The notes: generated by a model not told the origin, from the sequence alone. A stretch of DNA of 37,133 bases from an uncultured Porphyromonadaceae bacterium (GCA_947166165.1 CAMVDK010000002.1:1-37133); one strand, 5' to 3'; positions 9,756 through 28,164 are shown, counted from the stretch's first letter. Translations and numbers: made by a program.

Positions 9756-11075
9756 ATGAACATGAAAAAGTCAAAATTATATTTCATCTCGCTTCTGCTT
9801 GGCGGAGTGGCGCTGCTGTCGCTCCCCTCATGTAGCGACGACAAGTTCGGCGAGTCGATTTTCCCCGAAGAGGAAGACGTGCTCGATCCCAACTCGGTGA
9901 CCTATGAGTTCGACAAGTGGCTCGAAGAGAACTACCGCAAGCCCTACAACGTGCAGTACATCTACAAGATGGAGGACGTGGGCACCAACATGAACTACAA
10001 CCTCATCCCGGCCGACTACGACAAGGCAGTCGACCTGGCACTGCTGGTGAAGTACCTGTGGTTCGACGTCTACACCCTGGTGGCCGACGACAGCATCCAG
10101 TTCCTTCAGACCAACGCCCCGCGCCAGCTGCAAATCATCGGCTCGGCAGCCATGAACCCCAACAGCGGTTATGAGACTGTGGGTCTGGCCGAGGGCGGCG
10201 TGAAGGTGAACCTGTTCAAGGTGAACTCGATGAACCTGAACGACTTCAATATGATGAATGAGTACTACTTCCATACCATGCATCATGAGTTCACCCACAT
10301 CCTGCACCAGAAGATCAACTACCCGAAAGAGTTCGACGAGATCAGCAACTCGAAGTACGATGCCAACGACTGGACCAGCCGTGGCGGCACCGAGCACGAC
10401 GGCGTGGTGAACTCGATGGGCTTCGTGACCAAATATGCCTCGAGCGCCAAGCGCGAGGACTTCGCCGAGGTGGTGGCCAACCGCATCACCATGAGCGACG
10501 AGGACTGGGCCGCGATGATTGACCGCGCAGGCCGTGGATGGGCCGAATACCAGGTGACCACCGGTACCTTCTATTGCTCCTATTTCTACTTCACCAACAA
10601 CAAGGCTGGTGACGAGAACAAGGCCTACTTCCTGCCGAGCATGGGCTACACCACCAAGGAGGCCGAGAATGGCGACATCTATCTGGTGCGCTATGGCATC
10701 GACCAGTATCAGGAGGCCATTGCTCCCATCACGAGTGAGAACGTCTACGACCAGACCGGCTCGCTGGTGCGTGTGAACTACTACGACGCCAACGGCTCGC
10801 GCTGCGAGAAGGACGATGCCGGCCGCTGGCTGGTGATCGACATGACGGGCAACTACATCCCCATCAAGGTCTACCCTGTCGAGGACGAGGACGATGTCGA
10901 CGGCGCCCGCGCCATCAACCAGAAGGTGGAAATCGCCACCAAGTGGCTCCACGACCAGTGGGGAATCGACCTCGAGAAGCTCCGCGCCGAGGTCCAGAAA
11001 CGCCAGGAAGAGTACAAAGCCGACCCCACGGGGCTCATCAAGCGCCTGCGCAAAGAGGCTTTTGGACACGAATGA
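9756..11075 (+). CDS. Substrate import-associated zinc metallohydrolase lipoprotein (HExxH, Sus-linked)
   Basis: Lipobox LLSLPSCSDDKF; HHEFTHILHQKINYP (HExxH); position after SusCD matches the known HExxH lipoprotein-with-SusCD family (TIGR04549-like; not searched). Start could also be ATG at 9762. Confidence 0.82.
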   Translation: MNMKKSKLYFISLLLGGVALLSLPSCSDDKFGESIFPEEEDVLDPNSVTYEFDKWLEENYRKPYNVQYIYKMEDVGTNMNYNLIPADYDKAVDLALLVKYLWFDVYTLVADDSIQFLQTNAPRQLQIIGSAAMNPNSGYETVGLAEGGVKVNLFKVNSMNLNDFNMMNEYYFHTMHHEFTHILHQKINYPKEFDEISNSKYDANDWTSRGGTEHDGVVNSMGFVTKYASSAKREDFAEVVANRITMSDEDWAAMIDRAGRGWAEYQVTTGTFYCSYFYFTNNKAGDENKAYFLPSMGYTTKEAENGDIYLVRYGIDQYQEAIAPITSENVYDQTGSLVRVNYYDANGSRCEKDDAGRWLVIDMTGNYIPIKVYPVEDEDDVDGARAINQKVEIATKWLHDQWGIDLEKLRAEVQKRQEEYKADPTGLIKRLRKEAFGHE

Positions 11076-11104
11076 CACATCAATCCTTTAATTGACATCA
11101 GACA

Positions 11105-12598
11105 ATGAAAAAGATATTCAAAATTTCAGCTTTATTGCTGCTGTTGCCGATGGTGGCCACCTCGTGCTTCAAGCTTGAGCAGGACGACATCTTCGACAAG
11201 AGCGCTGCCGTGCGCCTCGACGAGGCCGCCGACAACTTCGCCCAGGTGCTGCTCGACAAGGGCGGCGTGTGGCAGATGGAGTATTACGCCAACGAAGGCA
11301 TGCAGGGCTACGTCTATGTGATGAAGTTCTACGACAACGGCAACGTCGACATCTCGGGCCACAACCCCTACATCGGCGCTGTGGACAAGGGCAATGGCTC
11401 CACCGAGGTGAAATATGGCAAAGCCACCTCGCAGTGGGACATGATCACCGACAACGGCCCCGTGCTCTCGTTCAGCTCCTACAACAAGTACTTCCACGTC
11501 TTCTCGCGTCCCGACGACATCCTGAACACCGGCAACGGTGTGGGCAACGACGGCCGTGGCTTCGAGGGCGACTATGAGTTCACCGTGCTCAAGTACAGTG
11601 GCGACACGCTCTACGTGCAGGGCAAGAAGTACAACATCCCCATGCTCATGACCCGCCTGCCTGCCGACACCAACGACCAGGAGTACCTCCAGACCGTGGT
11701 CGACAACTGGTCGAAGTACTTCAGCCCGCTCATCCCTCGCGTGTTCTTGACCTATCCCAACGGCAAGCGCTACGTGATCCAGGATGGCTCGGGCCTGATC
11801 ATGACCCTCTACGAGGAGAGCCGCGACGACGACCCCGACTACGACCCGCTGGTGAACACCTTCACCCGCAACGGCATCATCGGCCACGACGCCTTCGGCT
11901 TCATGAACCCGCTCGAGTATGACGGCTTCAACGTGCAGCACTTCGTGCCGCAAGAAGATGGCACCCTGCTGTGCACCGACGACAACACGTCGACCATCTC
12001 GGCTGGCGACCTGGCCAAGGACTGCTTCACCGACACGCTCCACCGCATGCGTCCCAAGAACCAGCCCAAGGGCGGCACCCCCGAGGCACTCGAGGCTGCC
12101 AAGCAGGCCGTGAAGGCCGAGAAGCCCAGCGAGGCCGTGGTGCGCACCACCTATTGGGAAATCAACCAGTCGCTGTCGACCGGAGCCGTGAAGGCCGCCC
12201 TCGACGAGCTCAACAGCCAGCTGCCCAAGCGCGGCAGCTTCAAGCAGACTGTAGGCTCGGTGAAGTTCAACTACATGGGCTACCCCATGGAGAGCTATCA
12301 GGTGATTATCGACATCAAGATCTCGCAGTCGAGCACGCAGTCGTTGAAGTTCTACTACGAGCCCGTGTTCACCGGCCCGAACGCTATCGAGTTCAAATTA
12401 ATCGAGAGCGACGGTCAGGCAGCCACGCTGGCCTACTACGACAGCGAAGCCTACAGCGGCACGAAGCACCTCATCGAGGCCATCATGCAGTCGTTCAAGA
12501 TCAGCACGCCCTCGATGCTCGCTCCCACGCGCATGGACTTCACCTCCACCGCCAATGCCGGCGATGTGATGGTGCTCAACGTGAGACGTTGGAATTAA
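11105..12598 (+). CDS. DUF4302-like lipoprotein
   Basis: Lipobox LLLLPMVATSCFKLEQDDIFDKSAAVRLDEA; WQMEYYANEGMQGYVYVMKF; the usual downstream neighbour of the HExxH lipoprotein in Sus-like loci. Confidence 0.72.
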   Translation: MKKIFKISALLLLLPMVATSCFKLEQDDIFDKSAAVRLDEAADNFAQVLLDKGGVWQMEYYANEGMQGYVYVMKFYDNGNVDISGHNPYIGAVDKGNGSTEVKYGKATSQWDMITDNGPVLSFSSYNKYFHVFSRPDDILNTGNGVGNDGRGFEGDYEFTVLKYSGDTLYVQGKKYNIPMLMTRLPADTNDQEYLQTVVDNWSKYFSPLIPRVFLTYPNGKRYVIQDGSGLIMTLYEESRDDDPDYDPLVNTFTRNGIIGHDAFGFMNPLEYDGFNVQHFVPQEDGTLLCTDDNTSTISAGDLAKDCFTDTLHRMRPKNQPKGGTPEALEAAKQAVKAEKPSEAVVRTTYWEINQSLSTGAVKAALDELNSQLPKRGSFKQTVGSVKFNYMGYPMESYQVIIDIKISQSSTQSLKFYYEPVFTGPNAIEFKLIESDGQAATLAYYDSEAYSGTKHLIEAIMQSFKISTPSMLAPTRMDFTSTANAGDVMVLNVRRWN

Positions 12599-12616
12599 GC
12601 ATAAACAGTGATTGCG

Positions 12617-12648
12617 ATGCCGGGGCGCGCAACCCCGTGTCCCGGCAT
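12617..12648 (+). terminator. Terminator-like hairpin closing the four-gene Sus-like operon
   Basis: ATGCCGGG (12617-12624) / CCCGGCAT (12641-12648). Confidence 0.45.
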
Positions 12649-12709
12649 TCAAATAACCAAAAACAGATTTTTTAATTCACCCTTTTTATTAACTAAACTT
12701 TTTGCAACT

Positions 12710-14554
12710 ATGAAAAAGAGTTTACTTTTTGCAGCTGCGCTGTCGCTGGCCGTTGTGGCTAACGCTCAGGTAGCTCGCAGTGCTGGCGCCGCCACGCAGT
12801 CCAAGGCTGTGGCCACCCAGCAGATGAAGAACGCTCAGATCGAGCACCGCTCGGCTCAGCGTGCCACCGCCGCCTTCGCGCCCCGCGCCAAGAAGGCTGT
12901 GCCCAACAACTACGCATACTATCTGCGTCCGAAGGGCACCATGTATGTGAACTGGGACAAGACCGGTAGCGGCTACATCATGCCGTTCGTCAACACCAAG
13001 CCTTACGACGAGGTGACTTGGCGCAACATGTCGACCGCCACTGGCGCTTCGGAGTGGGGTTATTGGCTGTTCAGCGTCGAGGATCAAGCCCGCGACTCGA
13101 TGACCTACGTTGGCAAGGACCTGACCGTGCGCTATGGCTATGAGTATGAAGACGTGCCCTACCTGACCGTCAGAGGCGCTACCAACAACCCCTACACCTT
13201 GAGTGGCTACCGCGTGAACCGCACCACCGGTGCCATCGAGAGCACTGCTAATTGCGGTGTGATTGCTGTGCCCAACTCGATGGAGTGTTTCAGCGATCAG
13301 GAGACCAACTTGCTGGCTTCGGCTCACTACTATGGCTCGAGCAACCGCTTCGGCACCGAGATGTATGGTTGGACTTACTACAGTGGCGCCCCGGGTCCCG
13401 ACTACGATCCCGATGCTCCCGCCGATCAGCAGGACCGCAGTGGCTACTGGTTCGGTAAGAACTACGGCGACTGGAACGTGTTCGGTTGCGGTTTTGAGAA
13501 ACCCGTCTCGCCCTATGTGCTGAACAAGATCTACTTCTGGGCCACCAGCGTTGAGGTGAGCGAGGATGTGGAGCTCGAGGCCCGCGTCTACCGCGTTGGC
13601 GACGAACTGCCCGCCTACAGCGACACCACCGTTGCCCGCATCGATCCGGCTATGCTCAACGAGGAGAACCTGATCGCCACCGGCCGCACCACCATCACCA
13701 CCGACATGAACGAGGACGGCAGCCCCCTCCTTGAGTTCACCCTCTATGAGACCGATCCCGAGCTGGGCATCGAGTATGAGACCACCCCGCAGATCAACGA
13801 CGCTATCGTGATTCTGATCGTCGGTATGGACCAGGATGCCATCGTTAGCATGTCGGGTCTTGTCACCAACGACGAGGAAGACGAGGGTGTTGGCGAGGTC
13901 ACCTACATGGGCCAGCAGCAGGACGGCGTGATCACCGCCTGCATTGGTCTCAACAACTTCTTCACCAGCGGTGAGCTGAAGGTTGGTAGCTCGATCCTGC
14001 TCGACGTCACCCGTCCGTTCATGACCTTCAACTACACCTTCGAAGAGGGTGAGTACACCTTCCCCAAGGAGGGTGGCAAGCTGGCTTACAGCTTCTCGGA
14101 TGGCACTACGATCGAGGGCATCGACTTCTATGCCACCAGCCCCAAGGCTGACTGGACCGTGACCACCGTCGAAGGCAACGAGGTGCCCGACTGGCTGACC
14201 ATCACGCTGACCGACGAAGAGAAGGACGGCGAGTTCAGCGGCGTTGTCAACGCTGCTGTCACCGCTGCTGCTCTGCCCAACAACCTGCCTGGCCGTGAGG
14301 CTTATGTGCGCTTCGCCATCAACGGCGCCTTCATCGACTATCACTTCATCCAGGGCGAGCCCGTGGTTGGCGTGAAGGGCGATGTGAACGGCGACGGTGC
14401 TGTCGACGTCGACGACATGAACCTCGTGATCAACATCATGCTGAACAAGGGTGCCACGATGGAGGACTATCCCGCAGCCGATGTCGATGGCAGTGGTTCG
14501 GTTGATGTGGATGACATGAACATCATCATCAACATCATGCTCGGCAAGGCCTGA
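12710..14554 (+). CDS. Secreted protein of unknown function with C-terminal dockerin-like tail
   Basis: Signal peptide MKKSLLFAAALSLAVVANAQ (start at 12710 preferred over the ORF-track 12608). C-terminus GDVNGDGAVDVDDMNLVINIMLNK...ADVDGSGSVDVDDMNIIINIMLGKA (14378-14551). Confidence 0.8.
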   Translation: MKKSLLFAAALSLAVVANAQVARSAGAATQSKAVATQQMKNAQIEHRSAQRATAAFAPRAKKAVPNNYAYYLRPKGTMYVNWDKTGSGYIMPFVNTKPYDEVTWRNMSTATGASEWGYWLFSVEDQARDSMTYVGKDLTVRYGYEYEDVPYLTVRGATNNPYTLSGYRVNRTTGAIESTANCGVIAVPNSMECFSDQETNLLASAHYYGSSNRFGTEMYGWTYYSGAPGPDYDPDAPADQQDRSGYWFGKNYGDWNVFGCGFEKPVSPYVLNKIYFWATSVEVSEDVELEARVYRVGDELPAYSDTTVARIDPAMLNEENLIATGRTTITTDMNEDGSPLLEFTLYETDPELGIEYETTPQINDAIVILIVGMDQDAIVSMSGLVTNDEEDEGVGEVTYMGQQQDGVITACIGLNNFFTSGELKVGSSILLDVTRPFMTFNYTFEEGEYTFPKEGGKLAYSFSDGTTIEGIDFYATSPKADWTVTTVEGNEVPDWLTITLTDEEKDGEFSGVVNAAVTAAALPNNLPGREAYVRFAINGAFIDYHFIQGEPVVGVKGDVNGDGAVDVDDMNLVINIMLNKGATMEDYPAADVDGSGSVDVDDMNIIINIMLGKA

Positions 14555-14608
14555 AAGCCAAGCTGAACCTATGTTATGAACTAAGCAGTTTCTTAACATA
14601 ATTTCTCG

Positions 14609-14639
14609 AAAGGGGGTGGCTGTGAAAGCCATCCCCTTT
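14609..14639 (+). terminator. Terminator hairpin after the dockerin-tagged unknown protein
   Basis: AAAGGGGGTGGCT (14609-14621) / AGCCATCCCCTTT (14627-14639), 13-bp stem with one G-U pair, 5-nt loop. Confidence 0.6.
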
Positions 14640-14729
14640 CCACAGTGTTATAGAGTCTGAGGCGGCAGGGGCGTGGAAGGCCGCGTCGAAGGTCACAGGG
14701 TCAAAGATTGGCGAGAACAATCCACGACT

Positions 14730-15026
14730 GTAGGGGCGTGACCTGTCACGCCCGGTTGCCGGGTCAAAGGTTCGCCGAAAAACCTTCATTCTGTTGATGT
14801 TACCATTCCATTCGGTCATCCGGCCATGACAGGTCATGGCCCTACTGCCGCGCTTTTGTGCGATTGCGAATCCGTTGATGTTACCATCCTATTTGGTCAT
14901 CCGGCCATGACAGGTCATGGCCCTACTGCCGCGCTTTTGTCCGATTACCGCGTTTTTTTCCGATTGCGAATCCGTTGATGTTTCCATCCTGTTCGGTTAT
15001 CCGGCCATGACAGGTCATGGCCTTAG
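14730..15026. repeat. Cluster of four 24-bp palindromic repeat units (one forward, three reverse)
   Basis: GTAGGGGCGTGACCTGTCACGCCC at 14730-14753; GGCCATGACAGGTCATGGCCCTAC at 14822-14845 and 14903-14926; variant GGCCATGACAGGTCATGGCCTTAG at 15003-15026, within longer units (...TGCGAATCCGTTGATGTTACCATCC...GGTCATCC...CTACTGCCGCGCTTTTGT). Confidence 0.9.
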
Positions 15027-15110
15027 TGCCGCACTTTTCTTGTTTGATGTAATTTGGGGTTAGGAATATTGGCTTTGTTTTCGAAATTACGTTAAAATGA
15101 AGCGTGTTGG

Positions 15111-15141
15111 TTGGTGGTGTGAGTTTTTTTTCGCAAATTTG
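15111..15141 (+). promoter_or_regulatory. Possible promoter for the first M6 protease gene
   Basis: TTG (15111-15113)-N20-CAAATTTG (15134-15141); one mismatch to TAnnTTTG. Confidence 0.35.
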
Positions 15142-15225
15142 CACTTTCAAGCCGATGTGTGCATTTTCGGCTGTATCCTTGTGCCAATCACCAGTCGCCG
15201 CTGTGCGACATAAACATAGACCGAA

Positions 15226-17436
15226 ATGAAAAAATTGCTTACCCTTTTGGCCGGTGGCCTGCTGACGCTGAGCGCGGTGGCCATTCCTGCCGACCCGCGT
15301 CCGCTGGTGGTGGACCAGCCCGATGGCACGCAGGTCACGCTTCGCCTGCGCGGCGACGAGTTCTATAGTTTCAGGACCACCATCGATGGCTACACGGTGC
15401 TTCGTGGTGCCAGCGGCGCGTGGGAGTATGCCCGCAGCGAGAACGGCCGCCTTCTGCCCACCGGCGTGGTGGCTCACGATGCCGCCTCGCGCACTCCCGC
15501 CGAGGTGATGCTGCTGGCGGCCACCGCGCGTGGCCTGGTCGACGTGCCGGGAGTCGGGGCGTCGAAGGTGGCGCGCGCCGAGGCGCAGTGGCCCGACCGT
15601 GTGCGCAAAATCGACCTCGACAAGTTTCATGGGCTCATCATCCTGATTGAGCCGTCGGACGTGTCGTTCAGCATGGGCGATCAAGCCAATAAGTTCTACG
15701 ACGAGATGGTCAATGCCAAGAACATGACGCAAATCAGTTTCGGCAACTATGGCTCGTGGACGGGCAGCGTGCGCGACTACTTCTACGACAACACGATGGG
15801 CGTGTTCGACCCGCATTTCGACATTGTGGGCCCGGTGAAGGTGAGCCAGGCGTCGACCACCTTCCGCAACAACAACCGCCAGGCGTTCAACGAGGCCTTG
15901 CGCAAGGTTGAGATTGACATCGACTTCACGCAGTACGACGGCGACGGCGACGGCGTGGTCGACAACGTGTGCTTCGTGGTGGCCGGCTATGGGTCGCATT
16001 CGGGCAACGATGAGGGCCTGCTGTGGCCTCACGAGAGCTCGAGGCTGGGCGATGGAGGCCGCTATGACGGCGTGAAGCTTGACAAGTATTCCTGCTCCAC
16101 TGAGATGGGCGGCACACCCTCCTATGGCTATGTGGACGGCATCGGCACCTTCTGCCATGAGTTCACCCACGTGTTGGGCTTCCCCGACCTCTACGACACC
16201 GACTATGAGCTAGGCGGCGGGCAGTCGCACGACCCTGGCGACTGGGACCTGATGGCCAGCGGCTCGTATCTGAACCGCAGCCGCACGCCGGCCGGCTATG
16301 GCATCTTTGAGCGTTATGCGCTCGGATTCGCCAATCCGCAATACATCACCGAGGTGGGCAGCTACACGCTCAACCCGCTGGGCGAGAGCAACGAGGGCCT
16401 GATTCTGCGCACGCCGCAAAACAAGGAGTACTTCATCATGGAGAACCGCCAGAAGTCGTCGAAGTGGGACAAGTATCTGCCCGGCAGCGGCATGCTGGTG
16501 ACGCGCGTCGACTCCACGACGGCCTATCTGTGGACCACCAACAAGGTGAACTGCAACCCTGCGCACATGTACTATGAGATGCTCCGCGCGGGCAACACCA
16601 CCAGCGGCTCGCGCGCCAGCGACCCCTTCCCCGGTTCGGCCGGTGTGCCGGTCATCACCAACGAGTCGACGCCCAGCCTGGTGACGTGGAGCGGAAAGCA
16701 GAACTCCTACTCGATTCTCGACATCACCTCTGCCAACGGCGTGGTGAACTTCCTGGTGGCGCAAGCCGGCGAGGAGACGATGCTCTATGAGACCTTCGAC
16801 CGCATCCCCATCACCACCACCACGACCACCGAGGCTGAGGGCGACATCGCCTCGTGGAAGCTGTCGCTGTGCCATGCGGTGCGCGTGGCAACCCGCGACC
16901 GTGCCATCGAGATGAAGAATCCCAGTGTGGCCCAGATGACCACTCCGGTCTATTGCGACGTGCGCATGGTGTCGGTGCTGGCCACCAACACCTCGGGCGA
17001 CGCCGCCAAGATTGCCCTGCAGTACAGCACCGACGGCGGCAGCAAGTGGACGTCGGCCAAGACCTACAGCGGCGCCACCACCTACAGCGTGCCAGGCACC
17101 ACCGAGCAGAATGTGTACTGGAACGTGAAACTGACCAAGGACCAGCCCGTGATGTTCCGCCTGCAGATGACCGGCGGCAGCAAGACGGCTCCCTGCATGC
17201 TCAACGACCTGATGATTTACTACACCGGCGAGCCTGGCGGCCCCGACCCGGGCATGCGTGGCGACGTGGACAACAACGGCGTGGTGGACATCGACGACAT
17301 GAACCTGATCATCAACATCATGCTCCACAAAGCCGAGGCCAGCGACTATCCCGGCCAGGCCGACGTGGACGGCAATGGCGTGGTGGACATCGACGACATG
17401 AACATCGTGATCAACATCATGCTGCACAAGGAATAA
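15226..17436 (+). CDS. M6-family (immune inhibitor A-like) metalloprotease with dockerin-like tail, paralog 1
   Basis: TFCHEFTHVLGFPDLYDTDY (HExxHxxGxxD), signal peptide; dockerin tail MRGDVDNNGVVDIDDMNLIINIMLHK...ADVDGNGVVDIDDMNIVINIMLHKE (from about 17260). Confidence 0.9.
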   Translation: MKKLLTLLAGGLLTLSAVAIPADPRPLVVDQPDGTQVTLRLRGDEFYSFRTTIDGYTVLRGASGAWEYARSENGRLLPTGVVAHDAASRTPAEVMLLAATARGLVDVPGVGASKVARAEAQWPDRVRKIDLDKFHGLIILIEPSDVSFSMGDQANKFYDEMVNAKNMTQISFGNYGSWTGSVRDYFYDNTMGVFDPHFDIVGPVKVSQASTTFRNNNRQAFNEALRKVEIDIDFTQYDGDGDGVVDNVCFVVAGYGSHSGNDEGLLWPHESSRLGDGGRYDGVKLDKYSCSTEMGGTPSYGYVDGIGTFCHEFTHVLGFPDLYDTDYELGGGQSHDPGDWDLMASGSYLNRSRTPAGYGIFERYALGFANPQYITEVGSYTLNPLGESNEGLILRTPQNKEYFIMENRQKSSKWDKYLPGSGMLVTRVDSTTAYLWTTNKVNCNPAHMYYEMLRAGNTTSGSRASDPFPGSAGVPVITNESTPSLVTWSGKQNSYSILDITSANGVVNFLVAQAGEETMLYETFDRIPITTTTTTEAEGDIASWKLSLCHAVRVATRDRAIEMKNPSVAQMTTPVYCDVRMVSVLATNTSGDAAKIALQYSTDGGSKWTSAKTYSGATTYSVPGTTEQNVYWNVKLTKDQPVMFRLQMTGGSKTAPCMLNDLMIYYTGEPGGPDPGMRGDVDNNGVVDIDDMNLIINIMLHKAEASDYPGQADVDGNGVVDIDDMNIVINIMLHKE

Positions 17437-17439
17437 TGC

Positions 17440-17620
17440 ACAATGCACAATTTCGCAATGCATAATTGAATGCACAATTTACAATGAGGCTGTTTTAGGA
17501 CTTAAGAACATAAGAGTTTAGAAAGGAACAAAAGAATCATTTTGTCGATTGGGAAAAAATAATCTTTTGTTCTTATGTCCACTCGAATATAAAGGCTTTT
17601 GTTCTTCTGTCTTCATTCGC
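17440..17620. repeat. AT-rich intergenic repeats: degenerate AATGCACAATT repeats and a GAACAAAAGA/TCTTTTGTTC hairpin
   Basis: aatgcacaatgcacaatttcgcaatgcataattgaatgcacaattt; inverted repeat GAACAAAAGA (17526-17535) / TCTTTTGTTC (17563-17572); second CTTTTGTTCTT copy just downstream. Confidence 0.65.
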
Positions 17621-17697
17621 ACAGTTCTGTGCATGATTTGAGTGTTGTGTGACTATTTAACTACTTGAACCTCAACAAACTATTATAGATTTAGAAA

Positions 17698-19908
17698 ATG
17701 AGAAGATTTCTGGCAATGTTGGCCGTGGTGGCGATGGTGCTTGGCGCCAGCGCCCGTCCGGCCCACCGTATGGCTGTGGCCATTCCGCAGCCCGACGGCA
17801 CACAGGTCACCCTGCAGCTGCACGGCGACGAGTTTTATCACTTCAGCACCACCACCGATGGCTACACCGTGATGCAGAACAGCGCGGGCTACTGGGTGTA
17901 TGCTCAAAGCGTGGGCGGCAGGTTGGTGCCCACCAGCCAGGTGGCGCACGACGCCGCTCAGCGCGACGCCGCCGAGCAGGCACTGCTGGCCGTCACGCCG
18001 CGCGGCCTGACCGACGACTTGAGCGTGGCCGACAGCAAGCGCGCCCGTGCCGCCGTGCAGGGACCGGCGCGCGCGTCGTTCGACTTCACCAAGTTCCGCG
18101 GACTCATCATCCTGGTGCAACCCAGCGACATTGAGTTCAGCATGGGCGCCGACGCCAACCGGTTCTATAACACCATCGTCAACCAGGAGGACATGACCTC
18201 GGTGGGCTTCGGCAACTATGGCTCGTGGACGGGCAGCGTGCGCGACTACTACCGCGACAATTCGATGGGCGTGTTTGCGCCTGAGTTCGACATCGTGGGC
18301 CCCATCAAGGTGAACTACAAGGCCACGCAGATTGGCAACTACTATGGCCAGGCGTTCCGCCAGGCGCTCAACAGTGCCAACGCGCAGGTCGACTACTCGA
18401 AATATGACGGCGACGGCAACGGCGAGGTAGACATGGTGTTCTTCCTCGTGGCCGGCAACACGGCCGCCGTGGAGGGTAACGAAAATCTGGGCTACCTGTG
18501 GCCTCACGCGAGCTCGGGCATCGGCGCCGGCACCTACGACGGCAAGCGCATCAGCCGCTACGCCTGCTCCACCGAGCTCAATGGCCCGGTCGACTATTCG
18601 TTTATCGACGGCATTGGCACCATCTGCCACGAGTTCACCCACGTGCTGGGCTTCCCCGACCTCTACGACGCCAACTACGCTACCGACGGCCTGGCCCACG
18701 ACCCGGGCGACTGGGACATCATGGCCGCAGGCACCGACCTCAACTACGGCCGCACGCCGGCCGGCTACAGCATCTTTGAGCGCTACACCTTCGGCTTTGC
18801 CAACCCCCAGGTGCTCAACGTGATGGGCGAGGGCGCGTACACGCTCAACTCGCTGGCCGAGAGCAACGAAGGCTTCATCCTGCGCACACCGCAGAACAAG
18901 GAGTACTTCATCATGGAGAACCGCCAGAAGACCTCGAAGTGGGATGCCTACCTGCCCGGCCACGGCATGCTGGTGACGCGCGTCGACTCCACCAACACCT
19001 ACTACTGGACCGTGAACCAGGTGAACAACAACGCCTCCCGCATGTACTACGAGCTGCTTCGTGCCGGCAACACCAGCACGGGCGCACTGGCCAGCGACCC
19101 CTTCCCCGGCACCTATGGCGTGGCCGCACTCACCAACACCACCCAGCCGAACCTGAAGACCTACAGCGGCCGTGCCTGCTCCTACATCATCACCAACATT
19201 GCCGAGAGCAATGGTGTGATTTCGTTCAACCTCAAGACACCCGGCAACGAGAAGACGCTCGTTGAGACCTTCAACCAGATTGGCGAGAGCACCGAGAACA
19301 TCTACGAGGCGCAGGGCGACATCGCGCTGTGGCGACTGGCGCAGTGCCAGAGCGTGGTGGTGGACGGCACCAACCGCGCCGTGGCGATGAAGAACCCCAG
19401 CGTGCTGCAAATGCAGGAGCCCATCTACTACAACATCGAGCAGGTGACCTTCGAGGTGAACAACACGTCGAGCGTCGCCGCCAAGATTGCGCTGCAATAC
19501 ACCGTCGACGGCGGCAAGAAGTGGAACAATGCCAAGACAAGCACGGGCGCCACATCGTTCAGCGTGGCCGGCAACGCGGCCATCACCACCTACTGGGCCG
19601 TGGAGCTGAGCAACATGCAGCCCACGCAGTTCCGCATCCAGATGACCGGCGGCAGCAAGACGGCCCCCATGCAGGTGGACAACTTCACCGTCTACTACAC
19701 CGGCGAGCAGGGACAGGGAACAACCTATGAGACTGGCGACGTGAATGGTGACGGCGTGGTTGATGTCAATGATATCAACATCCTGATTAACATCATCCTC
19801 GAGCGCGACAGCGCCGACAACTATGACGGCCGTGCCTACATCGCAGGAGGAACCACGGTGAGCATCGAAGACTTGAACATGCTGATCAACATCATGCTCA
19901 CTCAATAA
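17698..19908 (+). CDS. M6-family metalloprotease with dockerin-like tail, paralog 2
   Basis: TICHEFTHVLGFPDLYDANY; tail GDVNGDGVVDVNDINILINIILERDSADNYDGRAYIAGGTTVSIEDLNMLINIMLTQ. Confidence 0.9.
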   Translation: MRRFLAMLAVVAMVLGASARPAHRMAVAIPQPDGTQVTLQLHGDEFYHFSTTTDGYTVMQNSAGYWVYAQSVGGRLVPTSQVAHDAAQRDAAEQALLAVTPRGLTDDLSVADSKRARAAVQGPARASFDFTKFRGLIILVQPSDIEFSMGADANRFYNTIVNQEDMTSVGFGNYGSWTGSVRDYYRDNSMGVFAPEFDIVGPIKVNYKATQIGNYYGQAFRQALNSANAQVDYSKYDGDGNGEVDMVFFLVAGNTAAVEGNENLGYLWPHASSGIGAGTYDGKRISRYACSTELNGPVDYSFIDGIGTICHEFTHVLGFPDLYDANYATDGLAHDPGDWDIMAAGTDLNYGRTPAGYSIFERYTFGFANPQVLNVMGEGAYTLNSLAESNEGFILRTPQNKEYFIMENRQKTSKWDAYLPGHGMLVTRVDSTNTYYWTVNQVNNNASRMYYELLRAGNTSTGALASDPFPGTYGVAALTNTTQPNLKTYSGRACSYIITNIAESNGVISFNLKTPGNEKTLVETFNQIGESTENIYEAQGDIALWRLAQCQSVVVDGTNRAVAMKNPSVLQMQEPIYYNIEQVTFEVNNTSSVAAKIALQYTVDGGKKWNNAKTSTGATSFSVAGNAAITTYWAVELSNMQPTQFRIQMTGGSKTAPMQVDNFTVYYTGEQGQGTTYETGDVNGDGVVDVNDINILINIILERDSADNYDGRAYIAGGTTVSIEDLNMLINIMLTQ

Positions 19909-19925
19909 CACAGAATCCATAGTCG

Positions 19926-19950
19926 GGGGCGGGCCGTTGCGTCTCGCCCC
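19926..19950 (+). terminator. Weak hairpin between M6 paralogs 2 and 3
   Basis: GGGGCG (19926-19931) / CGCCCC (19945-19950). Confidence 0.35.
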
Positions 19951-19986
19951 TTGACTTTCACCAAAATTCAATAATCATTCCTCGAA

Positions 19987-22224
19987 ATGAAGAAATTATT
20001 TGCTTTGTTAACTTGTGCGGCAGCCGCGTTGCTGCTGCACGCAGTGCCTGCGCATCGCATGGCAGTCAATGTTGCCCAACCCGATGGCGACAGCCTCACC
20101 ATCAGTCTGGTGGGCGATGAGTACTATCATTACAATACCACTATCGACGGCTACACGGTCGTCAACACCGGCCACGGCTGGGAATATGCGCGTCTGGCCG
20201 GCCAACGCCTGTCGTCGACGGGTGTGCTGGCCCACAATGCCTCGCGCCGCAGCGCCAGCGAGCAGGCCCTGCTGGCCTCGCTCGGCCGCCACCTCACCGA
20301 CCGCGCCCAGGTGGAGAGCGGGCTGCAGGCCCGCCGTGCCCGCGACGCCCGCAACCAGCGGCCCAACCGCGAGCCGGTGGTGGACTACAGCAGCTTCCGC
20401 GGGCTGATTGTGCTCATCAACTTCAACGACAAGTCGTTCCTGATGGACGACCCGCACGCCTTCTACGACGACATGGTCAACACCAAGGGCTTCACGGGCT
20501 ACTACACCGGCACAAGCTGGTGGAACCGCCGCTTCAACGAGTGCTACGGCAGTATGCGCGACTACTTCTCCGATCAGTCGATGGGCGTGTTCGACCCGCA
20601 GTTCGACGTGGTGGGGCCGGTCGACGTGCCCTATTCGTGCCGCGAGTGTGGCGACAACTATTCCACCATCTTCCGCGCGGCCCTCGACGCCATCGACGAC
20701 CAGGTCGACTTCACGCGCTACGACAGCGACAGCAACGGCGAAATCGACATGGTGTTCTTCATGGTGGCCGGTTATGCGGCCAGCTACAGCGGCAACAGCG
20801 ATGACTATCTGTGGCCGCACATGAGCTACCTCTACGGCCGTGACCCGCAGAGCGGCTATTACTATTATCTGCAATACGACGGCATGTACATGGGCCGCTA
20901 TGCGTCGTCGACCGAAATCTACGGCTGGGAGTCGTATGGCATGACCGGCGCGGCGGGCATCGGCACCATGTGCCACGAGTTCAGCCACGTGCTCGGCCTG
21001 CCCGACCTCTACGACACCGACTACAGCAGCGGCGGCGGCCAGAGCAACGACCCCGGTGACTGGGACGTGATGGCCGGCGGCAGCCACGCCGACCAGGGCC
21101 GCAACCCCGTGGGCTACAGCCTGTGGGAGCGCCACGAGCTGGGATGGACCGAGCCGCAGGCCATCAATCACGCTGGCAACTACGAGCTCACCGACGTGAG
21201 CAAGAGCAACCAGGGATATGTGATGGCCACGCCGGTGGCAGGCGAGACGTTCTACTTCGAGAACCGCCAGCAGAGCAAGTGGGACAGCGCGCTGCCCGGC
21301 CACGGCATGCTGGTGGCACGCGTCGACCGCACCAACCAGGACATCTGGGACAGCAACCGCGTGAACGCCAACCCGAGCCACAATTATTACGAGCTCGTCC
21401 GCTCGGGAGGCAGTGCCGAGCGCACCACCTTCCCCGGCCCATCGGGCGTGACGGCCCTCAGCCAGGACACCGACCCCGCGCTGCTCACCTGGAACGGCAC
21501 GCCGTGCGACTTCGCGCTGAGCAACATCGCCGAGACCGGCGGCAAAATCACCTTCACCGTGGTGGCTGAGCAGCAAATGGACAACGTGGTGGAAGACTTC
21601 GAGACCATGCCCCTGACCACCGACCCGATGGCCACCGGCCTGAGCGGGCGCTTTGCCGCGTGGAACTTCACGCAGACCCTCGTGGTGCGCGACGAGCACT
21701 TCGGCTCCACGCGCGAGTGCGCCATCGCCATGCCCGGCGCGCTCGCCATGGCCACCGACGTGCAGGGCAACATCGCCCTGGTGAGCGTCGACGCCTTCAA
21801 CCCGTCGTCGACACTTGCCAAGCTGCAGCTCTACTACTCCACCGACCAGGGGGCCAGCTGGAACGCCCTGGGCGCGCAGGAAGTGCCTGCCGGCGAGACG
21901 GTGAACCTGGTGTGGCGCACCGTGCAGAAGCAGCCCGTGCGCTTCCGCCTGACGCGCACCGCCGGCAGCAAGACGGCCAACCTCTATGTCGACAACCTGG
22001 CCATAGGCTGCTACGGCGAACTCACCCACGACGAGCTGCCCGCCCTGCGAGGTGACATCGACGGCAACGGGACGGTCGACATCGAGGACGTGAACATCCT
22101 CATCAACATCATCCTCGAGCGCGACAGCGCCGACAACTACGGCGGCCGCGCCTACGTGGTTGGCGGCGACACGGTGAGCATCGAGGACGTGAACGCTCTG
22201 ATCAACATTCTGCTGGCCAACTGA
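19987..22224 (+). CDS. M6-family metalloprotease with dockerin-like tail, paralog 3
   Basis: TMCHEFSHVLGLPDLYDTDY; tail RGDIDGNGTVDIEDVNILINIILERDSADNYGGRAYVVGGDTVSIEDVNALINILLAN. Confidence 0.9.
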   Translation: MKKLFALLTCAAAALLLHAVPAHRMAVNVAQPDGDSLTISLVGDEYYHYNTTIDGYTVVNTGHGWEYARLAGQRLSSTGVLAHNASRRSASEQALLASLGRHLTDRAQVESGLQARRARDARNQRPNREPVVDYSSFRGLIVLINFNDKSFLMDDPHAFYDDMVNTKGFTGYYTGTSWWNRRFNECYGSMRDYFSDQSMGVFDPQFDVVGPVDVPYSCRECGDNYSTIFRAALDAIDDQVDFTRYDSDSNGEIDMVFFMVAGYAASYSGNSDDYLWPHMSYLYGRDPQSGYYYYLQYDGMYMGRYASSTEIYGWESYGMTGAAGIGTMCHEFSHVLGLPDLYDTDYSSGGGQSNDPGDWDVMAGGSHADQGRNPVGYSLWERHELGWTEPQAINHAGNYELTDVSKSNQGYVMATPVAGETFYFENRQQSKWDSALPGHGMLVARVDRTNQDIWDSNRVNANPSHNYYELVRSGGSAERTTFPGPSGVTALSQDTDPALLTWNGTPCDFALSNIAETGGKITFTVVAEQQMDNVVEDFETMPLTTDPMATGLSGRFAAWNFTQTLVVRDEHFGSTRECAIAMPGALAMATDVQGNIALVSVDAFNPSSTLAKLQLYYSTDQGASWNALGAQEVPAGETVNLVWRTVQKQPVRFRLTRTAGSKTANLYVDNLAIGCYGELTHDELPALRGDIDGNGTVDIEDVNILINIILERDSADNYGGRAYVVGGDTVSIEDVNALINILLAN

Positions 22225-22244
22225 CCGGCGCAAACCTAACCACA

Positions 22245-22283
22245 TTGGCCTAAGCGGCGCGGGCCCCGCACCGCTTGGGCCAA
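22245..22283 (+). terminator. Hairpin between M6 paralogs 3 and 4
   Basis: TTGGCCTAAGCGG (22245-22257) / CCGCTTGGGCCAA (22271-22283), 13-bp stem with one U-G pair. Confidence 0.5.
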
Positions 22284-22310
22284 CCAACAAATAAAAAGTA
22301 TTAAGAATAG

Positions 22311-24542
22311 ATGAAAAAACTTGTCACCTTGTTGGCCGGCGCCGTGGCAGCCCTCGCGCTGCACGCCATTCCCGCCGACCCCACGCCCGTCCGTGTCGGC
22401 CAGCCGGGCGGCGACAGCCTCACGCTCAAGCTGGTGGGCGATGAATTCTACCACTACAACGCCACTACTGACGGCTACACCGTGCTCCATACCGGGGCGG
22501 GGTGGGAGTATGCCTGCCTGACGGGCGGCCGCCTGGCCCCCACCGGCGTGCTGGCCCACGACGCCGGCCGCCGCACCGCCGCCGAGCAGAGCCTGCTGGC
22601 CACGCTCGCCCGCCACGTCACCGACCGCGCTGCGGTGCAGACGGGCATGCTCGCCCGCCGTGCACGCGACACCCGCAACCAGCGTCCCAACCGCGCCGCG
22701 GTGGTGGATTACAGCAAATTCCGCGGCCTGATCGTGCTCATCAACTTCACCGACAAGAAGTTCCTGATGAATGACCCCAATGGCTTCTACAGCGACATGG
22801 TGAACACCAAAGACTATGAAGGCTACTACACCGGCACCGGAGCCACGGCGCGTCTCAACCGGTGCACGGGCAGCATGCGCGACTACTTCTACGACCAGTC
22901 GATGGGGCAGTTCGACCCGCAGTTCGACGTGGTGGGGCCCGTCGAGGTGCCTTTCTCGTGCCGCGAGTGTGGCGAGAACTATTCCACCATCTTCCGTGCT
23001 GCCCTCGACAGCATTGATGCGCAGGTCGACTTCACCCAGTATGACAGCGACAGCGACCATGGCATCGACATGGTGTTCTTCATGGTGGCGGGCTACTCGG
23101 CCAGCTACAGCGGCAACAGCCAGGAGTACCTCTGGCCGCACATGAGCTACCTGTATGGCTACGATGCTGAACACGACCGGTGGGAGTTCCTCACCTACGA
23201 CGGCATGGCGATGGGCCGCTATGCGTCGTCGACCGAGATTTATGGTTGGGAGTCGTATGGCCAAACTGGTCCTGCGGGCATTGGCACCATGTGCCATGAG
23301 TTCAGCCACGTGCTCGGCCTGCCCGACCTCTACGACACCGACTACGAGGATGGCGGCGGCCAGAGCAACCATCCAGGCGACTGGGACGTGATGGCCGGTG
23401 GAAGCCACGTCGACCAGGGCCGCACCCCCGTGGGCTACAGCCTGTGGGAACGCAGCGAACTGGGGTGGGCGATTCCCGGCAAACTCGACGTCGAGGGGCA
23501 GTACACGCTCACCGACATCAGCAAGAGCAACGAGGGCTTCATCATGCAGTCGCCCGTCGAAGGCGAGATTTTCTACTTCGAGAACCGCCAGAACACCAAG
23601 TGGGACCGTGCGCTGCCCGGCCATGGCCTGCTCGTGGCGCGCGTCGACCGCACCAACCGCCGCATTTGGGACTGGAACCGCGTGAATGCCGACCCCAGTC
23701 ATAACTATTATGAGCTGATACGTTCGGCCTTTTCGGAGCAGAACACCACCTACCCCGGCCCGACGGGAGCCAACGAGCTGAATGCCATCAGCAATCCGCC
23801 ATTGGCCACTTGGAATGGCACGGTGTGCCCGCTGGGCCTGACGAATATTGCCGAGACCGATGGCGTGATTACCTTCGACCTCGGTTCGCTGGGCGAGCTC
23901 AACAGCGTGGTGGAGGACTTCGAGGCGATGGATACCACCGTCGATGTGAAGGTGACCGGTGTGCAGGGCAACTTTGCGGTGTGGGATTTCGTGCAGGCTA
24001 ATGTGGCCAACGACGAGCACTTCGCCTCGGCGCGTGAGTGCAAGATGGCCATGCCGTCGACCATGACAATGGTCAGCGATTTCGACGCCGACGTGTATCA
24101 AATCACCCTCGATGCCTATAATCCCTCGAGCCAGGATGCCAAGTTCCAATTGTCCTATTCGTTCGACAAGGGAGCCACGTGGAAGAGTCTGGGCAATTCT
24201 GTGACTGTGCCAGGCCTCGAGACGTCGCAACTGTCGTGGCGGCCTAAGTTCCGCCAGCCGTTCCGCTTGCGCCTCACGCGCAATGGCGGCAACAAGAACC
24301 TGCCGGTCTACATCGATAATCTCACCATCAACTTCATCGGCGAGCAGCGCGTGGCCGAGGGTGTCAAGGGCGATGTGGACGGCAACGGCGTGGTGGACGT
24401 CGACGACCTGAACATCATCATCAACGTCATGCTGCGCAAGGCCACGCTGGCCCAATGGCCCCAGGCCGACGCCGACGGCAGCGGCGAGGTGGACATCGAC
24501 GACCTGAACATCGTCATCAACATCATGGTGCACAAGGACTGA
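22311..24542 (+). CDS. M6-family metalloprotease with dockerin-like tail, paralog 4
   Basis: TMCHEFSHVLGLPDLYDTDY; tail KGDVDGNGVVDVDDLNIIINVMLRK...ADADGSGEVDIDDLNIVINIMVHKD. Confidence 0.9.
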   Translation: MKKLVTLLAGAVAALALHAIPADPTPVRVGQPGGDSLTLKLVGDEFYHYNATTDGYTVLHTGAGWEYACLTGGRLAPTGVLAHDAGRRTAAEQSLLATLARHVTDRAAVQTGMLARRARDTRNQRPNRAAVVDYSKFRGLIVLINFTDKKFLMNDPNGFYSDMVNTKDYEGYYTGTGATARLNRCTGSMRDYFYDQSMGQFDPQFDVVGPVEVPFSCRECGENYSTIFRAALDSIDAQVDFTQYDSDSDHGIDMVFFMVAGYSASYSGNSQEYLWPHMSYLYGYDAEHDRWEFLTYDGMAMGRYASSTEIYGWESYGQTGPAGIGTMCHEFSHVLGLPDLYDTDYEDGGGQSNHPGDWDVMAGGSHVDQGRTPVGYSLWERSELGWAIPGKLDVEGQYTLTDISKSNEGFIMQSPVEGEIFYFENRQNTKWDRALPGHGLLVARVDRTNRRIWDWNRVNADPSHNYYELIRSAFSEQNTTYPGPTGANELNAISNPPLATWNGTVCPLGLTNIAETDGVITFDLGSLGELNSVVEDFEAMDTTVDVKVTGVQGNFAVWDFVQANVANDEHFASARECKMAMPSTMTMVSDFDADVYQITLDAYNPSSQDAKFQLSYSFDKGATWKSLGNSVTVPGLETSQLSWRPKFRQPFRLRLTRNGGNKNLPVYIDNLTINFIGEQRVAEGVKGDVDGNGVVDVDDLNIIINVMLRKATLAQWPQADADGSGEVDIDDLNIVINIMVHKD

Positions 24543-24640
24543 CCTTGCGGTATTATTTTTGGCAAAATATGCCGTCGTGCGCCAATTTTTCGCCATGGGT
24601 CACGTTATAAATAATGAAAGAACTATAAAAAATCGACGAT

Positions 24641-26194
24641 ATGGCAATCAATCGACTACTCTTAGTGTTGTGTGCAGTGCTGTTGTGGCTGCAAGTGTCG
24701 GCTTTCGAGGTGGGAGGCGTGGCCTACGAGGTCACCTCCGGCACGAATGTCGACGTGGTGGAACGCTGGCCCATCTACGAGGGCGATGTGGTGGTTCCCG
24801 CCTCGGTGCGCTATAACGGCCAGGTGTATGCCGTGACGGGAATTGCCCGTGGTGCCTTTGCCGATGCCGAGGGTCTGACCTCCATCCGCCTGTCCGAGGG
24901 CTTGAAGTCGATCGGCATCGAAGCCTTCAAAGGCTGCATGCAGCTGCAGGAGGTGGTGGTGCCCAACAGTGTGACCGAAATCGGCCTGCGCGCCTTCTAC
25001 AACTGCGGCTGGCTGCAGCGCATCACTTTAGGCACGGGTGTGACCATGATTCCCTATGCCATGTGCATGGACTGCTACAGTCTGCGCACGGTGTCGATTC
25101 CCGACCAGGTGACCACCGTCGGCTCGTATGCCTTTGCCAACACGCCGATTGTCGAGCTTTCCATAGGCCGTGGCGTGGTCACCATCGAGTCGAACGCCTT
25201 CAGCGGCTGCAAGCAGGTGCGCCAGCTCAACATCGGCGACATGGCGCACTGGTGCGGCTTCGACTTCTATTCGCCCGACCAGAACCCGCTCTACTATGCC
25301 CGCACGTTCACGCTCAACGGCGAGGCGGTGACCAGCATCGTCGTGCCCGAGGGCGTGGAGGAACTGAAGCCCTATGCGTTTGCCTACACGTCGATCACGT
25401 CGATCACGCTGCCGCAGACGCTCAAGACGTTTCACGTGCTCAGCTGCTACCGCGCGGCGTTCGCGAGTCTCGACCTCCCCAACTCGGTGACCACCATCGT
25501 GCCGCCGGGCATCACGGTGCCCTACATCACCTCGTTGCGCTCGTTGACGATTGGCTCGGGTGTCAAGGTGCTCGAGGCCGGCACGTTCAAAAGCGCCACT
25601 AATCTGGCGGAGATCCACCTGAGCGAGGGCCTGGAGGCCATCTACGACTATGTGTTCGGCGAAACCCCTATCACCGAAATCGTGATTCCCAACTCGGTGA
25701 CCACGGTGAGCAGCGCCTTTGTGGGATGCACCAAGTTGCAGAAGGTGACGTTCGGCACTGGGCTGGAGCATCTCGATCACTTCTCGTTTCGTGGCTGTCC
25801 TAGCATCTCGGAGATTCACATCCCCATCCGCTACCCGGAGCAGATTATGAACGATGGCATAGGGCAGTTCGGCTCCATGAATTCCGAGGCCACCGATAGC
25901 GTCGACCGCGCCACCTGCGTGCTCTACGTGCCGCTGGGCAGCGCCGAGTATTACCGCAACCACCCGCTGTGGGGGCAGTTTGTCAACATCAGCGAGGAGG
26001 GCGCGTCGATGCCCGGCGATGTGGATGGCAACGGTGTGGTCGACATCGACGATGTGAACCAAGTCATCAACTGCATGATCCACAAGCCGGTGTGCGAGGG
26101 ATTCATCTTCGAGAACGCCGACTACAATGGCGACGGCGTGGTCGACATCGACGACCTGAACCTCGTCATCAACAAGATGGTGCATAAGGGCTGA
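24641..26194 (+). CDS. BspA-like leucine-rich-repeat surface protein with dockerin-like tail
   Basis: LRR_5-type repeats (LTSIRLSEGLKSIGIEAFKGCMQLQEVVVPNSVTEIGLRAFYNC...); tail PGDVDGNGVVDIDDVNQVINCMIHK...ADYNGDGVVDIDDLNLVINKMVHKG. Confidence 0.88.
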   Translation: MAINRLLLVLCAVLLWLQVSAFEVGGVAYEVTSGTNVDVVERWPIYEGDVVVPASVRYNGQVYAVTGIARGAFADAEGLTSIRLSEGLKSIGIEAFKGCMQLQEVVVPNSVTEIGLRAFYNCGWLQRITLGTGVTMIPYAMCMDCYSLRTVSIPDQVTTVGSYAFANTPIVELSIGRGVVTIESNAFSGCKQVRQLNIGDMAHWCGFDFYSPDQNPLYYARTFTLNGEAVTSIVVPEGVEELKPYAFAYTSITSITLPQTLKTFHVLSCYRAAFASLDLPNSVTTIVPPGITVPYITSLRSLTIGSGVKVLEAGTFKSATNLAEIHLSEGLEAIYDYVFGETPITEIVIPNSVTTVSSAFVGCTKLQKVTFGTGLEHLDHFSFRGCPSISEIHIPIRYPEQIMNDGIGQFGSMNSEATDSVDRATCVLYVPLGSAEYYRNHPLWGQFVNISEEGASMPGDVDGNGVVDIDDVNQVINCMIHKPVCEGFIFENADYNGDGVVDIDDLNLVINKMVHKG

Positions 26195-26237: not shown

Positions 26238-26285
26238 ACGGTTTTGGCCGCAACGCATAACTTTGCGGCCAAAACCGTTTTTTTT
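26238..26285 (+). terminator. Intrinsic-terminator-like hairpin with T8 tract
   Basis: ACGGTTTTGGCCGCAA (26238-26253) / TTGCGGCCAAAACCGT (26263-26278), perfect 16-bp stem, 9-nt loop, followed by an 8-T tract (26278-26285) ending 1 nt before the ATG at 26287. Confidence 0.8.
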
Positions 26286-26286
26286 C

Positions 26287-28164
26287 ATGCACAACGACCT
26301 GAGCGAAATCTACCATGAGAACCAGCGCCGGCTGCTGGCGCGGCAGTCGGCCTACGACCCGCTCACGGGCGCCGGCTGCTGCGGCGAGCGGGTGCCGGTG
26401 GGCGGCGAGTGGCTGCCGCGGGCCGTGATCGACGAGGCACCGGCCTACGCCACGCTGCCCGAGCTCGAGCGCCGCCGCCTGCGCGTGCGCCACGACTTTG
26501 AATACTGGTGCGCCACGTGTGCCACCGTGCGCGACAAGACCACCGGCCGCGCGGTGCCCTTCGTGCTCAACGCCCCACAGCGGCGCCTGGCCGCCGAGAT
26601 GGAGCGCCAGCGGCTGGCACACCGGCCCATACGCGTGATTCTGCTCAAAGCCCGGCAGTGGGGCGGCTCCACGCTCGTGCAGATGTACATGGCCTGGATG
26701 CAGCTCGTGCGCCACAAGGGCTGGAACAGCCTCATCGTGGGCCACAAGCGGCAGTCGTCGCGCTCCATCAAGGGCATGTACAACCTGCTGCTGCGCCACT
26801 ATCCGGCCGAGCTGGCCGAGCTGGCCGACGGCCCGCTGGCGTTCCGCAACTTTGAGGGCGGCAACACCGTGCAGCAGCTCGCTGCGCGCGAGTGCCTGGT
26901 GGTGATGGGCTCGTCGATGAATGGCGACGACGTGCGCGGCTATGCCATCGCCATGGCCCATCTCACCGAGGTGGCCTACTGGCGCGACTCGCCGCTGCTC
27001 TCGCCCGACGACGTGATGCGCAGCGTGAACGGCACCGTGGGCCTGCTCGACGACACCGTGGTCGTGCTCGAGTCGACGGCCAACGGCATGGGCAACTACT
27101 TCCACACCGAGTGGCTGCGCGCCTCGGCCGGCAAGAGCGACAAGACACCCGTGTTCGTGCCCTGGCACGAAATCGAAATCTACCGCTCGCCCGTGCGCGA
27201 CCTGGCGGCCCTCTGGCAGACCATGGACCCTTACGAGCGGCAGCTGTGGGACGACGGCCTCACGCTCGAGCAGATACAGTGGTACCACGACAAGCGCCAG
27301 GAGGCCTCGAGCCATGCCGCCATGATGGCCGAGTTTCCCACCACGGCCACCGAGGCGTTTGCCTGTTCGGGCTTCTCGGTGTTCAACCTCGAGAGTCTAG
27401 AGCGGCTGCGTGGGCTGTGCCGACCGCCGCTCGACGTGGGCGACGTGGCCGCCGACTACTGCACGCTGCGCAACATCCGCTTCGTGCACGATGCCGTGGG
27501 GCTGTTCAAGGTGTGGTGCTTCCCGCAGCCCGACCAGCGCTATCTGGTCACCGTCGACGTGGGCGGACGCTCCGACAAGGCCGACTACTCGGTGGTGGCG
27601 GTGATACGCGTCACCGACGTGGAGCATCGGCCGCCCGAGGTGGTGGCCCAGTGGCGCGGACACATCGACCGCGACCTGCTCGCCTGGAAGGCCGCCCAGA
27701 TTGCCGAGTACTACCGCCACGCGCTGCTCGTGGTGGAGAGCAACACCTACGAGACCCACTGCAACGACCCCGGGGCCGGCAGCTTCGTGCTCGACGTGCT
27801 GCGGGGCACTCGCGTGAACCTCTATGTGCGCGACTCCGGGCGCGCGGGCTTCCACACCGACCGCAGCAACAAGTATGGCATGATCCAGTACCTGATTGGG
27901 GCCGTGCGCGACCTCACCTATGTGGAGCGCGACACGGGCGCGGTCGACGAGATGGCCGTCTACGAGAGCCGGAGCAATGGCAGCTACGCCGCGCGGCGCG
28001 GCCACCACGACGACATCCTGATGACGCGCGCCATAGCCCTGTGGGTGCTGAAAATGGAGCCCGGGCTGCGGCCGCCGCGGCGCGCCACCGTGGACAAGGG
28101 CGACCTGCCCACGCTGGCCGGTCCGCAGGTGGGCAATCTGTGGGAGGGCCTCGCGCAAAGCTGA
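26287..28164 (+). CDS. Phage-type terminase large subunit (TerL)-like ATPase/nuclease
   Basis: Walker A-like VILLKARQWGGSTLVQMYMAW; ATPase/coupling segment TVVVLESTANGMGNYF; RNase H-like nuclease motifs YLVTVDVGGRSDKADYSVVAV, ALLVVESNTYE, HHDDILMTRAIALW. Confidence 0.85.
   Translation: MHNDLSEIYHENQRRLLARQSAYDPLTGAGCCGERVPVGGEWLPRAVIDEAPAYATLPELERRRLRVRHDFEYWCATCATVRDKTTGRAVPFVLNAPQRRLAAEMERQRLAHRPIRVILLKARQWGGSTLVQMYMAWMQLVRHKGWNSLIVGHKRQSSRSIKGMYNLLLRHYPAELAELADGPLAFRNFEGGNTVQQLAARECLVVMGSSMNGDDVRGYAIAMAHLTEVAYWRDSPLLSPDDVMRSVNGTVGLLDDTVVVLESTANGMGNYFHTEWLRASAGKSDKTPVFVPWHEIEIYRSPVRDLAALWQTMDPYERQLWDDGLTLEQIQWYHDKRQEASSHAAMMAEFPTTATEAFACSGFSVFNLESLERLRGLCRPPLDVGDVAADYCTLRNIRFVHDAVGLFKVWCFPQPDQRYLVTVDVGGRSDKADYSVVAVIRVTDVEHRPPEVVAQWRGHIDRDLLAWKAAQIAEYYRHALLVVESNTYETHCNDPGAGSFVLDVLRGTRVNLYVRDSGRAGFHTDRSNKYGMIQYLIGAVRDLTYVERDTGAVDEMAVYESRSNGSYAARRGHHDDILMTRAIALWVLKMEPGLRPPRRATVDKGDLPTLAGPQVGNLWEGLAQS

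Follow-up and report, generated by a model that had tools for sequence, protein, structure and literature searches.

The duplicated EF-hand tails that end six neighbouring secreted proteins of an uncultured Porphyromonadaceae bacterium are probably the plug half of a genome-wide, cellulosome-like display system, in which dockerins would bind cohesins carried by surface anchors with a T9SS-type tail. The six genes lie in a window of 37,133 nucleotides, the whole stretch of DNA that was analysed (GCA_947166165.1, CAMVDK010000002.1:1-37133). An outline of the proposed assembly is as follows: cargo proteins have Sec signal peptides, and their C-terminal dockerins would bind divergent cohesins. The T9SS and PorU would export anchors that bear cohesins and a T9SS-type sorting tail and attach them to the surface. 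Further cohesins would be provided by adaptors and scaffoldins, which are encoded beside an anchor, contain between one and six cohesins, and themselves end in a dockerin. In this way LRR adhesin-like proteins and peptidases, presumably including the four M6 enzymes of the window, would be assembled on the surface. The export route of the dockerin cargo is likewise a predicted part of this display model.

The cluster (12710-26194) consists of six adjoining genes, all on the plus strand and all with secreted products. The genes and their tails are as follows.

12710-14554, + strand: gene 1, secreted protein of 614 aa, body without Pfam match, C-terminal dockerin (Dockerin_1 E 5.4e-8, residues 556-610)
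14360-14551, + strand: dockerin tail of gene 1 (modelled span 14345-14551, AlphaFold2 pLDDT 88.9, two helices; Foldseek)
15226-17436, + strand: gene 2, secreted M6 metallopeptidase of 736 aa, C-terminal dockerin (TIGR03296 160.7 bits; Dockerin_1 E 3.1e-6)
17239-17433, + strand: dockerin tail of gene 2 (alignment A2)
17698-19908, + strand: gene 3, secreted M6 metallopeptidase of 736 aa, C-terminal dockerin with degenerate second calcium loop (TIGR03296 143.1 bits; alignment)
19714-19905, + strand: dockerin tail of gene 3 (alignment A2)
19987-22224, + strand: gene 4, secreted M6 metallopeptidase of 745 aa, dockerin-type tail with degenerate second calcium loop (TIGR03296 181.9 bits; custom HMM; alignment)
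22027-22221, + strand: dockerin tail of gene 4 (alignment A2)
22311-24542, + strand: gene 5, secreted M6 metallopeptidase of 743 aa, C-terminal dockerin (TIGR03296 177.1 bits; Dockerin_1 E 4.8e-6)
24342-24539, + strand: dockerin tail of gene 5 (alignment A2)
24641-26194, + strand: gene 6, secreted BspA-type LRR protein of 517 aa, C-terminal dockerin (LRR_5 E 1.2e-59; Dockerin_1 E 2.5e-7)
25994-26191, + strand: dockerin tail of gene 6 (alignment A2)

The original prediction, that six neighbouring plus-strand genes end in a duplicated motif and that four of them encode M6 proteases, is confirmed: four proteins exceed the TIGR03296 cut-off of 110.8 bits (143-182 bits), and HExxHxxGxxD is intact and invariant in all four, which places them in the M6 family. 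Gene 1 starts with an ATG at 12710 within an ORF whose GTG opening is at 12608, and its signal peptide was called by a heuristic. A duplicated calcium-loop-helix motif of about 55-60 residues can be aligned in all six tails and ends each protein as predicted, 2-3 residues ahead of the stop codon by a custom dockerin HMM. Pfam Dockerin_1 (PF00404) is above its cut-off in four tails (12710, 15226, 22311 and 24641); that of gene 3 scores 20.3 bits, just under the cut-off of 22.9, and that of gene 4 has no Pfam Dockerin_1 match and was detected by the custom HMM only. This HMM matched all six tails with domain E-values of 3e-17 to 4e-20, which are not independent because it was seeded partly with tails of the cluster. 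In the alignment, the second calcium loop is degenerate in the tails of genes 3 and 4; its acidic residues are absent (AYIAGGTTVSIED, AYVVGGDTVSIED) from the tails of 17698-19908 and 19987-22224 and also from that of L160:8774-9211, a sub-type that recurs in the window's genome.

Support for the dockerin identity that does not depend on the custom HMM has come from the fold. Failure of the tails to model as dockerins would have told against the original prediction; AlphaFold2, applied to the tail of gene 1 only, with 53 homologous tails, gave a confident two-helix model, the best 29 PDB matches of which were all dockerins, mostly from cohesin-dockerin complexes (Foldseek probability 0.90-1.00), whereas calmodulin-like EF-hands reached a probability of at most 0.06. 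By E-value these Foldseek matches are weak, the best at 6e-3, which is normal for a very small domain. Judged from sequence and modelled fold, the tails of the cluster are genuine type I dockerins, for which cohesin binding is predicted.

The tail is not particular to the cluster. In the window's assembly (2.94 Mb in 341 contigs, 83% complete), dockerin matches number at least 127, so that the tail is genome-wide, and all 24 genus-mates have from 29 to about 120 or more matches each, counts that are lower bounds. The other Bacteroidales families in this comparison have 0 or 1, except for G027 with 38. The named relatives of the M6 proteases come from rumen and gut MAGs labelled Muribaculaceae, Prevotellaceae, Porphyromonadaceae or Bacteroidales, and the genus of this rumen Bacteroidales appears to be Muribaculaceae-like.

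At the protein level, the analysis covered samples of about 400 kb per genome in five genomes, and any total for a genome is an estimate from such stretches. The domain lies within 12 residues of the protein end in 87 of 102 dockerin proteins, and a signal peptide is found in 92 of 94 complete dockerin frames by a crude hydrophobicity rule, which fires on 33% of control frames too. The tail is thus mostly, but not always, C-terminal: in a minority of the proteins, FGE-sulfatase-like ones for example, the dockerin lies internally or close to the N-terminus, indicating that a C-terminal position is not obligatory. Two exceptions to the C-terminal rule, L165:7415-8569 (+) and L165:16267-19182 (-), are secreted proteins in which the dockerin is internal or N-terminal and one end is FGE-sulfatase-like, an architecture that recurs in genus-mates. 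None of the 87 C-terminal-dockerin proteins has a T9SS sorting domain. A lipoprotein route for the dockerin cargo was also considered and dropped: a lipobox-like site occurs in none of the 25 complete proteins of the window's genome and in two across all five genomes.

What does the tail carry? Among the 25 commonest families listed for 71 dockerin proteins of four genomes, LRR_5 is the commonest body (22 of 71), and the others include C10, M6, S8 and C39-like peptidases, CotH-like, FGE-like and GHL10 proteins. The window's cluster, with its four M6 proteases and its LRR protein, represents the dockerin cargo fairly. The suggestion that the tails assemble a purely protease complex is not supported as stated, since LRR_5 tops the list beside M6, C10, S8, CotH and others. 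Polysaccharide-degrading enzymes, whose dominance marks a cellulosome, do not dominate the cargo, which is mainly LRR_5, peptidases, CotH and FGE-like proteins, and a classical fibre-degrading cellulosome was rejected on this ground.

The socket half is where the window's genome had seemed empty, as Pfam PF00963 finds no cohesin in it. In genus-mates the same model gives weak to good matches, some above cut-off. A profile (A3) was built from 14 genus-type domains, with PF00963 hits as seeds and two rows from G027; with it, the window's genome yields nine cohesins at E ≤1e-3 (best 2.7e-29), and the Pfam result here is therefore a false negative. At least one A3 cohesin is present in each of 25 same-genus genomes and in G027, whereas seven dockerin-poor families gave no A3 match. 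In the first 432 kb sampled of the window's genome, a local cohesin HMM had no match; the cohesins sit on other contigs. PF00963 is matched by 15 of 31 diverse members, no other family recurs among them, and the best eleven PDB matches of the cohesin profile are all cohesins, including ones solved in complex with dockerins. AlphaFold2 on a natural chain with both cohesin and dockerin (L108), run on a single sequence without an alignment, gave a model too poor to show the cohesin fold (pLDDT 39). By sequence, then, the A3 domains are cohesins, detected in the window's genome by the genus profile only. This favours the first alternative of the original prediction, a distantly encoded cohesin-like partner, which the tails would be predicted to bind. 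Its second, a generic C-terminal tag of the lineage, is right as a description, as the tail is terminal in most cases and occupies the position of the T9SS tail of homologous proteases; the two are compatible if the tag works by binding cohesin.

The proteins that bear cohesins fall into two classes. Anchors combine a signal peptide with an internal dockerin, one or two cohesins and, at the C-terminus, a T9SS-type tail, and they often contain LRR or Ig-like repeats as well. The second class, that of adaptors or scaffoldins, combines a signal peptide with between one and six cohesins and ends in a dockerin. Genes of the two classes adjoin in the same orientation at G000:C293, G002:C260, G004:C37, G010:C22, G010:C43, G011:C1 and G018:C20, that is, in six genomes including the window's own. 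Two genus-mates, G010 and G011, have six-cohesin scaffoldins; the largest number on any one protein of the window's genome is two cohesins, and that protein is partial. No cellulose-binding module was found on the scaffold and anchor proteins scanned with Pfam. The internal dockerins of anchors are mostly of a distinct type with an NPxPF-like linker. Such dockerins lie between or beside cohesins at L248, L255, L256, L262, L263 and L266, and they are conserved across genomes, while the C-terminal tails vary by genome.

Do the cohesins have the dockerins as partners at all? In a survey of 217 Bacteroidales genomes, which are not independent, and with dockerin counts as lower bounds, a dockerin match occurs in 20 of 21 genomes with an A3-type cohesin and in 58 of 196 without (Fisher p 3e-9). 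Within the genus, the co-occurrence is perfect. Six Bacteroidales genomes with at least 10 dockerin matches have no A3-type cohesin. The cohesin-like domains might instead have a structural or ligand-binding role and the dockerins a different target, such as another surface protein, as the many dockerin-rich Bacteroidales genomes without A3-type cohesins, the small number of cohesins for many dockerins, and the frequent presence of both domains side by side on one chain, where they could pair internally, would allow. We regard this as unlikely in view of the perfect co-occurrence inside the genus, the multi-cohesin scaffoldins with a C-terminal dockerin and an adjoining anchor gene, and the PDB matches to cohesins, some of them solved with dockerins. 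In six genomes of other families (G075, G114, G126, G135, G138 and G205), each with at least 10 dockerin matches, many matches span model positions 8-56 only; these dockerins may have another partner, or may be another EF-hand repeat.

The link to the surface is suggested by the anchor tails, which carry motifs B, D and E as in the short T9SS domains of Prevotella intermedia (PMC11969387). Their T9SS scores are above cut-off in G027 and below it for several genus anchors, which were judged by motif. In the window's genome, three PorU-type sortase genes lie consecutively (NF033707, 668-914 bits, cut-off 420) at L250 (G000:C31) 4173-15373 (-), adjoining two cohesin genes. SprA is present in 21 of 25 genus genomes and was not found in the window's 83% complete assembly. 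TIGR04183 matches for T9SS tails number 3-14 per genus genome, few compared with dockerins. The window itself encodes, at 1923-3278 (+), a secreted protein without family match that ends in a short T9SS-type tail (GIYVHNGAKVLITP), and thus holds both tail types.

Homologous M6 proteins end in one or the other of the two tail types. Among 69 M6 proteins with complete 3' ends, compared as homologues, not as proven orthologues, a simple rule assigned 38 to dockerin tails, 14 to T9SS-like tails and 17 to other; of these 17, many are T9SS-like by eye and three are dockerins missed by the rule. The Muribaculaceae-labelled group has mostly dockerin tails and the Prevotella-labelled group mostly T9SS-like ones, with exceptions both ways; L105 and L110, for example, are M6 proteins of the Muribaculaceae-labelled group with a T9SS-like tail. 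This swap could mean that the dockerin tail has taken over from the T9SS C-terminal domain as an outer-membrane sorting signal and is read directly by the secretion machine, the cohesins being incidental. The scarcity of T9SS tails beside many dockerins while the SprA pore is retained, and the mostly C-terminal position on proteins with signal peptides, would fit such a role. It is nevertheless quite improbable, as the tail has the helical fold of a dockerin and the T9SS domain is beta-stranded (PMC11969387), dockerins also occur internally or close to the N-terminus, and every genome of the genus has cohesins.

Cohesin-dockerin display, the reading that we prefer, raises a question of its own if true: how does cargo that lacks a T9SS signal get across the outer membrane? 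It is possible, if doubtful, that the cargo binds cohesin carriers in the periplasm and crosses the T9SS pore by means of the carrier's sorting tail. If so, a few tailed carriers would export more than 100 proteins without an outer-membrane signal of their own.

The tails are also specific to each genome. Tail identity is 0.565 between unrelated proteins within one genome and 0.416 between related proteins across genomes (baseline 0.41), and the difference was reached in none of 2000 label permutations; the tails thus cluster by genome, not by protein body. At loop positions 10, 11, 14 and 15, which face cohesin in other dockerins, the two repeats of a tail have the residues of their genome in common (0.74, against 0.25 between genomes). 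Such tails, together with the tail swap of the M6 proteins, are expected if the tails fit one genome-specific partner. A common partner of this kind would yield concerted tails; gene conversion would be an alternative explanation. The homogenised tails, and the degenerate second calcium loop of two tails in the window, might even suggest a partnerless domain, either a calcium-binding cap for stability or a relic spread by gene conversion. This is very hard to reconcile with the almost exclusive occurrence of the tails on proteins with signal peptides, their co-occurrence with cohesins, and the joint change of both repeats at the positions presumed to face cohesin, and we give it hardly any weight.

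Like the cellulosomes of clostridia and ruminococci, the system presented here has the dockerin fold, numerous secreted proteins with dockerins, scaffoldins that carry cohesins, adaptors that combine cohesin and dockerin, and separate anchor proteins. It differs in its Gram-negative host, its anchors with a T9SS-type tail, its cargo of mostly LRR proteins and peptidases, and cohesins that in the window's genome are too divergent for Pfam. Dockerins far outnumber cohesins also in Ruminococcus albus-like systems, in which a cohesin is thought to anchor enzymes singly to the surface (PMC6118326); here, the phylum and the anchoring are different, there are several cohesin proteins, and genus-mates have six-cohesin scaffoldins. 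With the short-CTD T9SS cargo of Prevotella intermedia (PMC11969387), the anchors and some M6 homologues share motifs B, D and E in their tails, whereas the dockerin cargo lacks such a tail. The NagJ cohesin and NagH dockerin of Clostridium perfringens likewise pair outside a cellulosome, and the NagJ cohesin is among the PDB matches of the profile, but few enzymes are paired there, against a genome-wide system here.

Bacteroidetes MAGs with dockerins had no recognizable cohesin, leaving the role of the dockerins unclear (PMC7260996), and rumen surveys have suggested that these bacteria may not need a cellulosome, or else that their cohesins have diverged too far to be recognized (PMC7260996; also PMC7480376). 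The role of dockerins in rumen Bacteroidetes has not been defined (PMC7480376). One study found cohesins in Firmicutes_A only (PMC9177762), and another mentions them in some Bacteroidetes bins, with no system described (PMC6071333). Among open-licence papers we found no description of a Bacteroidota cohesin-dockerin system with T9SS anchors; an earlier one may exist elsewhere. Divergent cohesins may explain the rumen Bacteroidota that have dockerins yet seemingly lack cohesins. Distant cohesins with adaptors, scaffoldins and T9SS-tailed anchors address this published question, which now becomes a direct binding test. If true, the model would mean that cellulosome-like assembly also takes place on a Gram-negative surface, based on the T9SS, and with proteases and adhesins as cargo.

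Two further features of the window concern the surroundings of the cluster. SusCD/HExxH/DUF4302 genes adjoin it, and from this adjacency the original prediction derives a putative coupling of the two. Directly after the LRR gene, 26263-30108 (+) encodes a terminase large subunit (phrog_2, E 4e-22) and a protein matching phrog_32516, and an exonuclease (phrog_298) is encoded farther along, at 35358-36077 (-); a prophage or prophage remnant thus seems to border the six genes.
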